DNA of 10,968 bases from an archaeon (lineage in GTDB: Archaea; Thermoproteota; Nitrososphaeria; Nitrososphaerales; UBA183): NCBI GenBank assembly GCA_021807225.1, contig JAKAPI010000020.1:1-10968 (forward strand), written 5' to 3'. A program made the translations under genes and the position numbers. This document shows, piece after piece, positions 4,457 to 8,687 of the stretch; the stretch's first letter is position 1, and each line of letters starts with the position of its first letter. Below the pieces are notes generated by a model. It searched no databases. It worked only from the letters and a program-made list of their open reading frames with translations, and was not told where the DNA came from.

Positions 4457-4521
4457 GCAGACCCTGAGAGGGCATTCAGACCAATCCGCTGCCGTGTTCC
4501 AACTCCGTTCCAACCCGTTCG

Positions 4522-4555
4522 GGAACGGGTGTTCCTCGGGGTTCCTAATCTCCCC
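4522..4555 (+). promoter_or_regulatory. Shared promoter/operator of the surface-protein regulon, copy 1
   Basis: GGAAC-N4-GTTCC (4522-4535) is followed by GTTCC (4541-4545) and CTAATCTCCCC, a TATA-like box. ATG 4576 lies about 28 nt beyond the box, so the transcript is probably leaderless or nearly so. An ungapped comparison with 5860-5893 gives 29 identities in 34, and the distance to the start codon is 54 nt in both. In this copy the GGAAC half-site also belongs to a longer perfect inverted repeat, ACCCGTTC-GG-GAACGGGT (4513-4530). Confidence 0.75.
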
Positions 4556-4575
4556 CAGCCTCCAAGGGGGCATCG

Positions 4576-5610
4576 ATGAAGAAAACATATGTCGCGACAG
4601 TCGCGATCACAGCGGCTCTAGTGATAGTACTGGCGGCCGCGATCGCACCAATCAATCAGCCAGCCCAGGCGAAGTCCGGGACTTTGGCGGTCATGGGGAC
4701 GGATCCCCCTGTCACCTCGACCGGCATCAGCTCTGCCACCATGTCCTACAGCTCCGTCAGCGCCCACACCGCAGGCTCTGACATGTCGAGCGGGTGGGTC
4801 AGGGTTGCCGGATCCGGGTCCATGAATCTCATGGCCAACGGGACCGCCCAGGTGCTCGCAACCTCCAAAGTCAACGCAACAACCTACGACGCCTTCAGGT
4901 TCGACGTGAACTCCATCAGCGTCGTCTACAATGGCCAGACCTATGCAGCCACCGTGGCATCTACCTCGGTCACAGCGGCCTCCCAGAGCCAGGTCCAGGT
5001 CAGCTCTGGCTCGTCGGCAGCGGCCCTCGTAGACGTCAGGACGTTCATCCAGAACACAGCAACAACGTCAAACCCGCAGTTCGTCTTCAGCGCAACAGCC
5101 ATGGCGACGGAAGTCCCCTCGCAGGCATCGGCTGCGGTCTCCCTGAAGCTTGGCGCCACCTTGGACCTAACGGGGCAGGCGTGGTTCAGCTCGTTCGAGA
5201 CCCAGACCGGCGCGAATGTGACCATAGTCTCGGCCACGGTCGCGAGCGGGGCGCTCAGCATCGACCTCCGGAACAGCGGGGGCGCCAGCGGCCAAGTCCA
5301 AGAGGTCATCATCACGCCCGCCTCGGCTTCGGTCTTCGCCTCGGCCTCGCTCCCCTCTTCGTTGAGCGGCTCTGCCGTCTTCACGGTCAGCGGGTCCGGG
5401 TCGGTGCAGCAGGCATCTTCCCTGCAGGCGTCCACCTTCACCAGTTCTGGGGCCACCGTGGCCCAGGGGGCGTCGAGCACCATTGACTACACCGGGGACA
5501 TAGCGATGAGCGGGGGCTTGCAGCCCACCGGAATCGTCGCAGGCCAACAGTACATCATCACCTGCATCGGAGCCAACACATACGCCAGTACCACCGTGGT
5601 GGCCTCCTAG
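4576..5610 (+). CDS. Secreted DUF4382-like surface protein
   Basis: The 344-residue product begins with a Sec-type signal peptide: MKK, a hydrophobic core at about 6-24, and a likely cleavage site AQA-KS after residue 32. Residues 35-165 resemble DUF4382: GTLAVMGTDPP, a GWVRVAGSGSMNLMANG segment and FDVNSISVVYNGQTY are the hallmark strands. Residues about 185-335 form a second Ser/Ala/Val-rich beta domain (DLTGQAWFSSFETQTGANVT, IDLRNSGGASGQVQEVIITP). Asn-Gly-Thr, Asn-Ala-Thr and Asn-Val-Thr sequons suggest N-glycosylation. There is no C-terminal membrane helix or LPXTG-like anchor, so it is presumably released or held by the S-layer. DUF4382 proteins have no established biochemical role. The promoter is shared with the gene at 5914, and a hairpin overlaps the stop codon. 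Confidence 0.85.
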   Translation: MKKTYVATVAITAALVIVLAAAIAPINQPAQAKSGTLAVMGTDPPVTSTGISSATMSYSSVSAHTAGSDMSSGWVRVAGSGSMNLMANGTAQVLATSKVNATTYDAFRFDVNSISVVYNGQTYAATVASTSVTAASQSQVQVSSGSSAAALVDVRTFIQNTATTSNPQFVFSATAMATEVPSQASAAVSLKLGATLDLTGQAWFSSFETQTGANVTIVSATVASGALSIDLRNSGGASGQVQEVIITPASASVFASASLPSSLSGSAVFTVSGSGSVQQASSLQASTFTSSGATVAQGASSTIDYTGDIAMSGGLQPTGIVAGQQYIITCIGANTYASTTVVAS

Positions 5611-5630
5611 GCCACCTCCCTTTTCTTTTA
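5598..5630 (+). terminator. Hairpin plus T-rich tract at the end of the DUF4382 gene
   Basis: GGTGGCC (5598-5604) pairs with GGCCACC (5610-5616) across a five-base loop that contains most of the stop codon. It is followed by TCCCTTTTCTTTTA (5617-5630). Stem plus T-tract is the form of an intrinsic-like terminator, and archaeal RNA polymerase responds mainly to the T-tract. GGTGG (5598-5602) can alternatively pair with CCACC just upstream (5591-5595). Confidence 0.6.
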
Positions 5631-5859
5631 GGTGAGAGTTCATATTGAATAGAATGCAACTGGCCGACGCTTTCGAAGCCGCGACCGAAGAGACCCATCC
5701 CGAAGCGTCCAGGCAGTTCGAGGAAGCCCGGCCGGGGCGTCTCATGGGTCAGAGGGGAGGACGCGGTGCAAGTCCCCGAGCCCAGTCATACGATCCGGGT
5801 CCCGGAGGAGCCATCCGGGGGAGGGACCCCCGCGTCATGAAAGCCCTCTCCTGCGGCTT
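5631..5859. other. GC-rich intergenic stretch with many inverted repeats, possible structured RNA
   Basis: The stretch lies between the terminator of the upstream gene and the promoter of the gene at 5914. Complementary pairs seen are GACCCAT/ATGGGTC (5692-5698 with 5744-5750), GCGTCC/GGACGC (5705-5710 with 5759-5764), GGGGA/TCCCC (5754-5758 with 5773-5777), CCGGG-T-CCCGG (5795-5805) and CGGGGG/CCCCCG (5816-5821 with 5827-5832). The first two cross, so they would form a pseudoknot. A weak 90-codon TTG-start frame (5645-5917) runs through it but reads as low-complexity and is not accepted as a gene. No known RNA family is recognised. Confidence 0.35.
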
Positions 5860-5893
5860 GGAACGGCCGTTCCACGGGGTTCCTTATCCCCCC
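5860..5893 (+). promoter_or_regulatory. Shared promoter/operator of the surface-protein regulon, copy 2
   Basis: A perfect 14-bp palindrome GGAACGGCCGTTCC (5860-5873) is followed after five bases by GTTCC (5879-5883) and CTTATCCCCCC, a TATA-like box. ATG 5914 is about 28 nt past the box. It matches the element at 4522-4555 in 29 of 34 positions with the same distance to the start codon. The inverted GGAAC half-sites lie just upstream of the TATA-like box, where an activator could help TFB/TBP or a repressor could block them. Confidence 0.75.
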
Positions 5894-5913
5894 AGGGAGG
5901 GATACCTCACGGC

Positions 5914-7758
5914 ATGAGCGCCGTTCGCGCAAGACCGCTGCTCTCGGCGGCGGTTGCCATCGTGATCCTCGCGGGAGTCTTCACCCCGCTGGTCGCCGTC
6001 GGCCTTGCGGGCCCCTCGACGCAGTCCCAGGGCCAGCTCAACGACGTCATCAACGCGACCCTCTCGTCGAGGGCCTACGCCCAGCAGGTTGTCGGCATGG
6101 CATCGGCTCATGGCCTGGCAGTCAGTTCGGCCCAGTCGAAGCTCAGCCAGGGGGATGCGCTCTTGGCGACCGCCCAGGCCGACGCGCAGTCAGGGGCCTC
6201 GGCGGCCGCGGTCGAGTCAGCCCAGGCGGCGATGAGCGACTACACGGCGGCCTCGGCGTCGGCCAGCCTCGCGCTGAGCGGCGCGGGGCTCACCACCTCG
6301 GTCGACTACTCCGCTGCAGCGGGGGCCGCCGCAGAGGTCAACGCCACCGTGTCCGTCATTGCCGCCGCTGCCGCCCACGCCTGCGCTCAGACTGACGTCT
6401 CGACCTCAGGGAGCAGCGGCCTTGCCGAGGCATGCGCCCAGGTCAACGCTCAGGTCCAGGCGGCCGATGCCCACCTCAGCCAGGCAGCCTCCCTGCTCGC
6501 CCGGGCCAACGGAGAGGCCAACGCCACCGTAAGCCTGTCCCAGGTCCTCACTCAGGTTGCCCAGGCAAGGTCGGAGGTCAACGCGACTCAGTCCTATCTG
6601 GTGACGATCGCTTCGTACTCCTACGCGCAGCGAGCCGACGCATATGTGAGCGCCTACATCCGGTCCCTCTCCTCCGAGGCCAACGCCACGATCCAAGCGG
6701 AGCAGTCCGCCTACGCCAACCTGACCAGCTTCCAGGCCCAATATGCGGCCTACGCGAGACTGCAAGGCTCGGCGGCAGCGAACGTCGCTTCGTCGGCCTC
6801 GATTCTCGCGGCCGCCATCTCGAAGGTCGATGGCTATTCGGGCAACGTTTCGTCCTCCATCAGCGCCGCCCAGTCGACGGAGTCGCAGCTCCACGCCGAC
6901 CTGCAGGCGCTGCCCGGCCTATCAGTCATAGCCGCCCAACCTGGCATCGTCGCCGACATCCAGGCATGCATGTCAGACGGCGCTTCATACAATGCCTCCC
7001 TTTCCGCGCTTCAGGCTGAGCTCAACGGCTTCTCCAAGGTCCAGCTGCCGTCCTACGGGAGCTACCTCGGGGCCGTGAACTCGGACGGGAGCTCGGCTCG
7101 GTCGAACGGCTCCGCCTACGTGTCGTCCTATGACAAGGTCGTCAGCGACCTTCAGCCGTTTCTGAGCCTGCCGCAGGTGCAGGCAGTCCTCGGCCTCTCC
7201 GTCTCGGCCACCGTAGGTGCAGCCGCCTCGTCAATGTCACAGCAGGCCGCCCAGATGACAAGCGGGGGGACCGACGCGTCACGCTTCAGCTCAAGCGTCA
7301 CGACGGCCCAATCAGACGTCCCTGTGAGCGGCGCCCTTCTCTCGATGGCAGCCTCGGCGGCAGCGCAGTCGTCGGTGTATCTCAACGCCACCGCAGCAGC
7401 CGCGACCGCCCAAGTGTCAGCCTCGGTTCAGGCGGTGGCCAAGGCAGCTGCCGCCTTCGACGGCGCGGCCTACCAGTCCACGCAGGCGACCCTGGGAGCG
7501 TACCCGTCCGACGAGAGGGGGCTCTCCGGCGCAGGCGCTTCGCTGTCCTCAACCACTGGGGCGTCCGCAGGCGCCACTGCCACGGCCGTCGCCTATGTGG
7601 GCGGCTCGATACAGGCGAGGATAGCAGGTGCGGCGTCGGGCCGCGCCGAGGTGTCTCAGGCCCTTCGGTTCTTCTCTAGCCAGGACATAACTGCGGGCAT
7701 ATCTGCCATGGTCCAGGCATCCCTGGAGTTCCAGACAGCGTCCGCCGTCAGCGTCTAG
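5914..7758 (+). CDS. Large secreted Ala/Ser-rich helical surface protein
   Basis: I do not recognise a family. The 614-residue product has an N-terminal signal sequence (MSAVRARPLLSAAVAIVILAG, hydrophobic to about residue 31). The remainder is dominated by Ala, Ser, Gln and Val with heptad-like spacing, as in long helical bundles or coiled coils. A short motif Glu-(Val/Ala)-Asn-Ala-Thr recurs with the Glu at residues 141, 201, 221 and 255. Further N-glycosylation sequons (Asn-Leu-Thr, Asn-Val-Ser, Asn-Ala-Ser, Asn-Gly-Ser) make a heavily glycosylated rod likely. Two Cys (about 156 and 172) flank a Ser/Gly loop and may form a disulphide. No C-terminal membrane segment is present. Shared promoter architecture links it to the DUF4382 protein upstream. 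The stop overlaps that of the convergent regulator gene in the palindrome CTAG (7755-7758). It may be a stalk, adhesin or S-layer-associated protein (inference). Confidence 0.8.
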   Translation: MSAVRARPLLSAAVAIVILAGVFTPLVAVGLAGPSTQSQGQLNDVINATLSSRAYAQQVVGMASAHGLAVSSAQSKLSQGDALLATAQADAQSGASAAAVESAQAAMSDYTAASASASLALSGAGLTTSVDYSAAAGAAAEVNATVSVIAAAAAHACAQTDVSTSGSSGLAEACAQVNAQVQAADAHLSQAASLLARANGEANATVSLSQVLTQVAQARSEVNATQSYLVTIASYSYAQRADAYVSAYIRSLSSEANATIQAEQSAYANLTSFQAQYAAYARLQGSAAANVASSASILAAAISKVDGYSGNVSSSISAAQSTESQLHADLQALPGLSVIAAQPGIVADIQACMSDGASYNASLSALQAELNGFSKVQLPSYGSYLGAVNSDGSSARSNGSAYVSSYDKVVSDLQPFLSLPQVQAVLGLSVSATVGAAASSMSQQAAQMTSGGTDASRFSSSVTTAQSDVPVSGALLSMAASAAAQSSVYLNATAAAATAQVSASVQAVAKAAAAFDGAAYQSTQATLGAYPSDERGLSGAGASLSSTTGASAGATATAVAYVGGSIQARIAGAASGRAEVSQALRFFSSQDITAGISAMVQASLEFQTASAVSV

Positions 7759-8687
7759 CCCTGCGGACTGGCGCCCCTGTCCTTCACTACCTCGATCTGG
7801 TTTTGTGTGCCGATCTTTCGCACTCTGACGTAGCCCAGCCTTTCTAGCCGTTTGATTTGCCGCCAGCCCGAAGTCTTGGGAAGAGCGAATTTCGCCCTGA
7901 TCTCAGGCTCGAGCACTTTGCCGCCATTCTCGCGTATGAAGCTGAGCACTTGGACGTCATCTGGCCTCAGCCCCCCGCCTGTGGGCCCGGGGCCGCGCCT
8001 CCTCCACAGCAAGATTGAGAGCCCCGCTGCAGCCAGCGCGGCCGCCGCAGCCCCTGCCTCCTCTGCCTCCCGAGCTGACAGCCCCAGGAATCCGCTCGCC
8101 CCTCCTCCGGGCCCGGGGCTGCTTGTGGTGGTCAGGCCGGCGATGGGGGCCCCGTAGCTTATCGTCCAGGTCCCTGCAGGGACGTCGAGCTCTGGGGCCG
8201 CGTTAGTCTCGTTGATGGAGTAAGGAGATGGATAGGGAGCCCCTGATACGAAGCTCAGGGTAGAGAGCGGGGGGAGCACCACGGTGGAGTTGTATTCCGT
8301 GGCGTATGTCAGGGTCCATACAGTCCCATTCTTCGAGGTCAGGGCGTCGGTATCGTACCGGAGCGTGACGGAAGTAGCCCCCAACGTGTAGACGGTTATG
8401 TTGGCGTTCCCAGGACCGAAGCTGTAGGAAAGTGGGGAGCCGTTTTGGTCGGTCGCCACCAGGTTGGACACCACTTCCGACAGCAACGGGACCACGACGG
8501 ACGTCGACCTTGAGCCCGTCGCCAGGGTCTGCGTCACGTCGACATAGCCGTCGGCGTATACCCTCAGAGTCAGGGCCTTCCCGCTGTAGGCGAACGAGGC
8601 AGGGACCGAGCACAGGAGAATCGCGACCGCGAGAAAGACGAGGAGAACTCTCAGACTCAAGTTTGGCAGGTCCCCCTTCTGGCCCAC
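7755..8687 (-). CDS. Membrane-anchored winged-helix regulator with extracellular sensor domain
   Basis: The 310-residue product has a signal/anchor segment (14-34, VLLVFLAVAILLCSVPASFA) and an exported beta-rich domain (about 35-185) with Asn-Ile-Thr, Asn-Gly-Thr, Asn-Ser-Thr and Asn-Glu-Thr sequons. A Gly/Pro linker (189-199) leads to one membrane helix (about 209-228) closed by WRRRGPG. Residues 241-302 form a cytoplasmic winged helix (DDVQVLSFIRENGGKVLEPE, IRAKFALPKTSGWRQIKRLE, then a wing YVRVRKIGTQNQIEVV). Archaea carry many such one-component receptors, in which an external signal is passed to a DNA-binding domain at the membrane. GTG 8687 is the longest start. TTG 8660 would give a cleaner signal sequence (MSLRVLLVFL) and lies better relative to the TTTTAG box at 8695-8700. 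The neighbouring surface-protein genes are plausible targets (inference). Confidence 0.8.
   Translation of the reverse strand: MGQKGDLPNLSLRVLLVFLAVAILLCSVPASFAYSGKALTLRVYADGYVDVTQTLATGSRSTSVVVPLLSEVVSNLVATDQNGSPLSYSFGPGNANITVYTLGATSVTLRYDTDALTSKNGTVWTLTYATEYNSTVVLPPLSTLSFVSGAPYPSPYSINETNAAPELDVPAGTWTISYGAPIAGLTTTSSPGPGGGASGFLGLSAREAEEAGAAAAALAAAGLSILLWRRRGPGPTGGGLRPDDVQVLSFIRENGGKVLEPEIRAKFALPKTSGWRQIKRLERLGYVRVRKIGTQNQIEVVKDRGASPQG

Follow-up and report, generated by a model that had tools for sequence, protein, structure and literature searches.

In the window, a stretch of 10,968 nucleotides (nt) from an uncultured Nitrososphaerota archaeon (contig JAKAPI010000020.1, assembly GCA_021807225.1), two surface-protein genes, designated A and B, are each preceded by a similar 34-nt block containing the palindrome GGAAC-N4-GTTCC. 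It is likely, on comparative evidence, that the product of a third gene, C, binds this palindrome and controls A and B, probably as an activator. The features computed here are the element, its conservation, genome-wide specificity and fixed spacing, its linkage with C, and, for C itself, the predicted layout of domains. The genes and elements concerned are as follows.

Gene A, 4576..5610, forward strand: 344 aa, secreted or surface protein with DUF4382 and a pilin/FlaF-FlaG-like C-terminal beta domain (Pfam PF14321, homologues, model and fold comparison).
Gene B, 5914..7758, forward strand: 614 aa, secreted, Ala/Ser-rich, probably coiled-coil surface protein (homologues).
Gene C, 7755..8687, reverse strand: candidate transmembrane (TM) transcription regulator; first helix 12-26, beta ectodomain 37-179, helix 205-230 read as TM, winged helix 238-302 (sequence, Pfam, homologues, model, fold comparison).
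Putative operator palindrome of A, 4522..4535, forward strand: GGAAC-GGGT-GTTCC (sequence; conserved in relatives).
Putative operator palindrome of B, 5860..5873, forward strand: GGAAC-GGCC-GTTCC (sequence; conserved in relatives).
GTTCC abutting the TATA-like box of A, 4541..4545, forward strand: probably core promoter, like a B recognition element (BRE) (RTYCC in deeper relatives).
GTTCC abutting the TATA-like box of B, 5879..5883, forward strand: probably BRE-like (comparison with relatives).
TATA-like TAATC of A, 4546..4550, forward strand: -30 to -26 from the ATG (sequence, AT peak of a relative).
TATA-like TTATC of B, 5884..5888, forward strand: -30 to -26 from the ATG (sequence, AT peak of a relative).
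Extra half-site-like copies upstream of the palindrome of A, 4496..4521, forward strand: GTTCC, GTTCC and GTTCG at 4496-4500, 4507-4511 and 4517-4521 (sequence).

A conserved block before genes A and B

Aligned without gaps, positions 4522-4555 and 5860-5893 are identical at 29 of 34 positions, making them the top non-overlapping pair of 34-mers in the window; the best pair in 20 dinucleotide shuffles reached only 24-25 identities. Both blocks start exactly 54 nt upstream of an ATG (4576 and 5914), so the likeness reported in a preliminary description of this DNA is borne out. In each, the palindrome is followed by a 10-nt spacer ending in GTTCC, and then by TWATC. When up to three mismatches are allowed, GGAAC-N4-GTTCC-N5-GTTCC is found at two places in the window, these being the two blocks, both mismatch-free; at this tolerance 0.53 matches are expected by chance, and two or more were present in 18 out of 200 shuffles.

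Scanning with gene A yielded 13 loci, spread over 12 genomes. The promoter alignment consists of the window, 11 of these loci, and genome G022; L008, a copy of L009 in these promoters, and L012, a site-less paralogue, were left out. In the window and in all 12 aligned relatives, the site is present before both A and B with at most two mismatches, and the ATG lies 53-55 nt after its first G in 26 out of 26 aligned promoters. The site carries approximately 1.5 bits of information per position; in the stretch from -40 to -21 relative to the site, the figure is 0.18 for A and 0.01 for B. Nearer to it, from -20 to -1, there are 1.12 bits before A, where the extra GTTCC copies lie, versus 0.22 before B; CGTTCCA at -16 to -10 (4506-4512) is well conserved over the 13 A promoters. 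These extra copies, about 10-11 nt apart, precede the site of A alone, not that of B, and resemble the arrays before an operon of ammonia oxidisers described below.

A recent duplication or gene conversion between the two leaders, without function, would also give 29 of 34 identities within one window. Both sites, however, are kept in all aligned relatives with gene-specific differences (11 of the 13 A sites carry TAAT, and 12 of the 13 B sites TTAT), whereas the sequences flanking the two blocks differ between the leaders and are not kept. The copies are therefore old and separate, maintained by selection as had been suggested; gene conversion is rejected on these grounds, and a functionless duplication is extremely improbable.

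The site is also specific to these promoters. Across the genomes of the 12 relatives, the 24-mer pattern with no more than one mismatch occurs at 26 places, versus two for a reversed control, and 25 of the 26 are at A- or B-type promoters: 23 are the A and B sites themselves, one is an out-of-register overlap with an A site, and one is before another A-type gene fragment (G007:C137). The remaining place (G002:C49) is at no such promoter. Likewise, the exact pattern is found at 26 places in 15 genomes when 400 genomes of the order are searched, and the reversed pattern at three; these and the other genome counts are uncorrected for kinship, and many of the genomes are metagenome-assembled genomes (MAGs) in many contigs. 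The motif is thus neither scattered at random nor lost upstream of the orthologues, both of which would have spoken against a regulatory site.

To place the block relative to the promoter core, a profile was made from G009, a relative (772-kb contig; 137 ATG-started open reading frames, ORFs, from crude gene calling, each having 60 nt or more of intergenic space). AT content before these ORFs peaks at about -35 to -26, as is typical of leaderless promoters, with TTTAT, TAAAT and similar words enriched there. The TWATC of A and B, at -30 to -26, falls within the position of this peak, which supports the earlier view of an inverted GGAAC/GTTCC pair before a TATA-like box as a transcription-factor site. 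Since the palindrome precedes the TATA position, a reading of it as part of an RNA leader is disfavoured; no RNA family was found by Rfam at gathering scores within the window.

The preliminary description had proposed GGAAC-N4-GTTCC-N5-GTTCC as the pattern to scan for. Among deeper relatives identified through C or through the palindrome alone, the third GTTCC is relaxed to RTYCC (GTCCC, ATCCC, ATTCC), whilst most of them share with the window a palindrome-to-TWAT distance of 10 nt. On this basis the palindrome is read as the operator and the third copy as probably part of the core promoter; the latter is doubtful as an operator half-site.

This bears on the direction of control. C might instead repress A and B, bound at the palindrome and at the half-site overlapping the core and blocking TBP/TFB until an envelope signal releases it. 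MarR-like proteins, the family that the winged helix of C resembles, are often repressors, and in the core clade the third GTTCC directly adjoins the TATA-like box. Against this, the palindrome is upstream of the core, mostly at a fixed 10 nt, the third copy is the part that loosens, and the TATA-like box compares poorly with the words that are enriched in the G009 promoters. Activation is suggested by the placement of the palindrome, immediately before the promoter core and with constant spacing to a poor TATA box; repression is possible, but is considered about half as likely.

Gene C as the candidate regulator

C is the only DNA-binding gene found recurring beside B in the core loci. Its product is predicted to have a signal peptide, a beta ectodomain, one membrane helix and a C-terminal MarR-like winged helix. 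Helix 205-230 is hydrophobic and followed by WRRR, and is predicted to be transmembrane from the model and a reading of the sequence, rather than by a dedicated TM predictor. The winged helix (238-302) is assigned as a DNA-binding domain of the MarR winged-helix fold from the model and its MarR-like fold matches. The C protein of the window scores 22.9 bits against Pfam MarR_2, under the 27-bit cut-off, and in alignment A3 all 42 proteins match MarR_2 at E<=0.01. MarR family proteins form dimers via N- and C-terminal helices around the winged helix. When the ectodomain (37-179) was compared by fold, the top matches were an oligosaccharyltransferase subunit and M1/M61 peptidase beta domains.

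C runs toward B and overlaps its end by 4 nt (7755-7758). The two genes are convergent, with ends -4 to +4 nt apart, in 10 out of 10 pairs (the window, L001-L006, L009, L013 and L127; L007, L008, L010 and L011 are left out of this count), and near contact of the ends recurs in outgroup loci such as L220, L221, L224 and L225. This near contact may couple the expression of B and C.

In the proposed mechanism, the 34-nt block would act as operator plus core promoter. The palindrome would be bound by a winged-helix dimer, most likely of C, and the weak TATA-like box 10 nt downstream would start a leaderless transcript at or near the ATG. C would be a membrane-anchored one-component regulator. Its ectodomain, outside the cell, would sense the envelope, perhaps through surface protein B or partners of B, and in the cytoplasm its winged helix would contact the operator. 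From its position just upstream of a poor TATA box, C would recruit or stabilise TBP/TFB. That C is the binder is suggested by linkage and co-occurrence, for which the wider distribution of site and gene is informative.

Distribution of the site and of C

Within the order, homologues of C (E<=1e-10) are present in 56 out of 121 relatives, and a gene for a secreted coiled-coil-like protein often adjoins them, either up- or downstream. Apart from the ammonia oxidisers, 13 C-bearing genomes were fetched, and in 11 (G138, G122, G018, G033, G037, G047, G024, G026, G039, G088, G147) the palindrome, with at most one mismatch, precedes a secreted gene. G147 is the weakest, as the start codon must be set inside the called ORF. 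In G024 and G047 the single exact palindrome in the genome is the one before the secreted gene; in G026, G039 and G088 the palindrome-bearing secreted gene is not adjacent to C.

An extended pattern, the palindrome core plus TYCCTWA, is found at 37 places in 22 of the 121 genomes, the reversed pattern at three. C is present in 21 of these 22. The other, G075, has an extended site without being among the C-bearing genomes, and no ORF of at least 90 aa is right behind it. There are four extended sites in G026 and three in G039, of which two and one, respectively, are before secreted coiled-coil-like proteins, and one in each genome is before a protein with a signal that by eye resembles those of twin-arginine translocation (Tat). 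Behind the operator-promoter sites at L207 (G026:C2:25096) and L211 (G039:C6:97431) there is no long exported ORF, or only one of 92 aa, and a small gene or RNA is possible there.

Seven of the genomes tested have amoA. At one ammonia-oxidiser locus, L126, a small winged-helix gene, C and a B-like gene are in series on one strand, an order also seen in L230, L231, L232 and L234, which were not tested for amoA. In the other six amoA genomes the same start, ATGTCAAAAC, is found where the small gene would be. GTTTC-N5-GTNCC is at the promoter before the small gene in all seven, with more GTTCC-like copies upstream; in ammonia oxidisers the site would control C as well.

In other classes of Thermoproteota, the palindrome GAAC-N4-GTTC is absent from the promoters of the neighbours of C in the fetched loci, an outcome through which the GAAAC form came to light. 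Eighteen stretches with C were fetched from the phylum sample and 12 were inspected for a promoter; left out were L217, which ends at C, L227, with a different neighbour, and L230-L232 and L234, with the layout of small winged helix, C and B. Among the 14 stretches without the ammonia-oxidiser layout, C adjoins a secreted B-like gene in 12, and 11 of these 12 promoters have GAAAC-N4/5-GTTTC with TTAT, TTAA or TTTT 10 nt on. A merged pattern, written after seeing these loci, occurs at 22 places in 18 out of 151 phylum-sample genomes (reversed, seven), and all 18 are among the 91 that have C, G465 only weakly. Outside G009 there are 20 places; for 16 of them, C lies on that contig no more than 1.75 kb away. 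Seventeen of the 20 are followed by an ORF that is 100 aa or longer and has a hydrophobic N-terminus, as judged by a crude filter for 15 and by eye for the other two; the remaining three are without such an ORF. Because the merged pattern was written partly from these loci, the independence of this second count is incomplete, but the pattern is blind to the position of C.

In the same 20 outgroup places, GAAAC is paired with GTTTC in 17. Arms changing together are as expected of a dimeric DNA-binding protein, and this is relevant to another explanation, in which no separate regulator is needed and the block is itself a special core promoter, recognised by a dedicated paralogue of TFB or TBP. 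The near-constant spacing to the start codon and the conserved core would fit such a promoter. The dyad, however, is conserved, its arms usually differ together, and one to a few promoters per genome bear the block; this explanation is very unlikely.

A number of observations weigh against control by C through this site. The spacers are longer in G138 and G122. The bare palindrome is near background, with 2-6 exact places per genome in 13 genomes versus 2-15 for the reversed control; the bare 14-mer is accordingly rejected as a specific mark, specificity coming once the promoter core is added. G177 and G087 have C with no recognisable site nearby, some sites are far from C in G026 and G039, and sites and C are on different contigs in G088, G445, G442 and G436. 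The whole-chain model of C has a low predicted TM-score (pTM) of 0.34. No palindrome was seen in the 110 nt upstream of C in the window and eight core loci, and autoregulation of C is therefore rejected for the core. In the phylum sample, C-like proteins (E<=1e-10, many weak) are present in 91 of the 151 genomes, far wider than the site, the merged pattern being in only 18 and the strict GGAAC pattern in two, one of which (G441) is not among the C-bearing. L220 retains the right arm only, and three of the 20 outgroup sites are mixed, with one arm of each form. Lastly, the second, small winged-helix gene in the ammonia-oxidiser operon could be the binder.

Two of these points also favour a real operator bound by a different, cytoplasmic winged-helix protein, with C merely travelling with B: the C family is wider than the site, and in ammonia oxidisers the small winged-helix gene is between the site and C. 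On the other side stand the recurrence of C, and of no other DNA-binding gene found, beside B in the core, its place beside a secreted gene in other classes too, its presence in 21 of the 22 site-bearing relatives, and the 16 of 20 outgroup sites within 1.75 kb of it. A different binder is thus unlikely, and C is retained as the probable one. A further proposal is more tentative and somewhat less likely than not: that of a phylum-wide envelope-sensing circuit, from ammonia oxidisers and related lineages to other classes, in which C would monitor its secreted coiled-coil partner B and adjust B and a few other surface proteins via an operator of conserved geometry, its arms mostly co-changed (GGAAC/GTTCC, GAAAC/GTTTC). 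The small surface-protein regulon of this lineage, as first described, amounts in this clade to only two promoters, but the system extends far beyond the lineage.

Related systems and other features of the window

The winged-helix fold of C is common to MarR-type proteins, to which C adds an ectodomain and a membrane anchor, with the MarR_2 match under cut-off. The SOS box of LexA/DinR in Gram-positive bacteria has the same GAAC-N4-GTTC letters, but is bound by a bacterial soluble repressor, and there is no link here to C or to secreted genes. Membrane-bound one-component regulators are already known in archaea. At least one transmembrane transcription regulator (TTR) was reported in 367 out of 404 archaeal species (PMC10269533), and these, like C, are one-component proteins that combine a DNA-binding domain with a predicted membrane region. 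The main text of that survey does not contain the terms Thaumarchaeota or Nitroso-, and in its available text no operator of the form GGAAC-N4-GTTCC and no partner secreted protein is described (PMC10269533). ArnR and ArnR1 of Sulfolobus acidocaldarius, reported to activate archaellum expression, are membrane-bound regulators of a surface structure acting via inverted repeats before the promoter, as proposed for C (PMC6396743). According to the available text, however, they have an N-terminal helix-turn-helix, a putative HAMP and two C-terminal TM domains, whereas C has an N-terminal ectodomain, one TM helix and a C-terminal winged helix, and the ArnR box is TCGAC-N5-GTCGA (PMC6396743).

In the literature searched, with most subscription papers outside its coverage, there was no description of the C family, its operator or their pairing, and no known operator for a Nitrososphaerota regulator. 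Few archaeal regulators have a known operator. Here, a candidate regulator family, an operator in two letter forms and the targets can be followed by sequence across much of the phylum, and this range takes in ammonia oxidisers, of which some have been cultured. This opens testable questions as to how archaea sense their own surface, and how a membrane-tied DNA-binding domain locates one or two promoters in a genome and drives them. If true, the envelope-sensing circuit would correspond, in archaea, to the envelope-stress responses of bacteria.

The named homologues of A, B and C belong to Nitrososphaerota/Thaumarchaeota or to unplaced archaeal MAGs, and A has no relative among viral contigs. 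The C-terminal beta domain of A is assigned to the archaeal type IV pilin / FlaF-FlaG fold by model and fold comparison. Archaeal pilins have a class III signal peptide with a processing site; the N-terminus of A, MKKTYVATVAIT, is a hydrophobic helix with, by eye, no evident charged-residue-glycine site. At locus L012, a second DUF4382 gene of REEA66 is without the operator and is a paralogue with 36% identity. For B, the Pfam search of the window proteins gave no match, and its signal-peptide-like N-terminus and coiled coil were read from the sequence by eye.

Elsewhere in the window, 1054-2453 encodes a winged-helix protein and then a protein with GGWAVWF...SIDIDVVG, by eye resembling an AbiE-like antitoxin-nucleotidyltransferase pair. 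The second of these (1647-2453) was unsupported by Pfam and PADLOC, and PADLOC gave weak CasR/CARF matches to the first (1054-1644). At 182-928 there is an integrase-like ORF, its Pfam matches under cut-off, which is possibly a decayed tyrosine recombinase.

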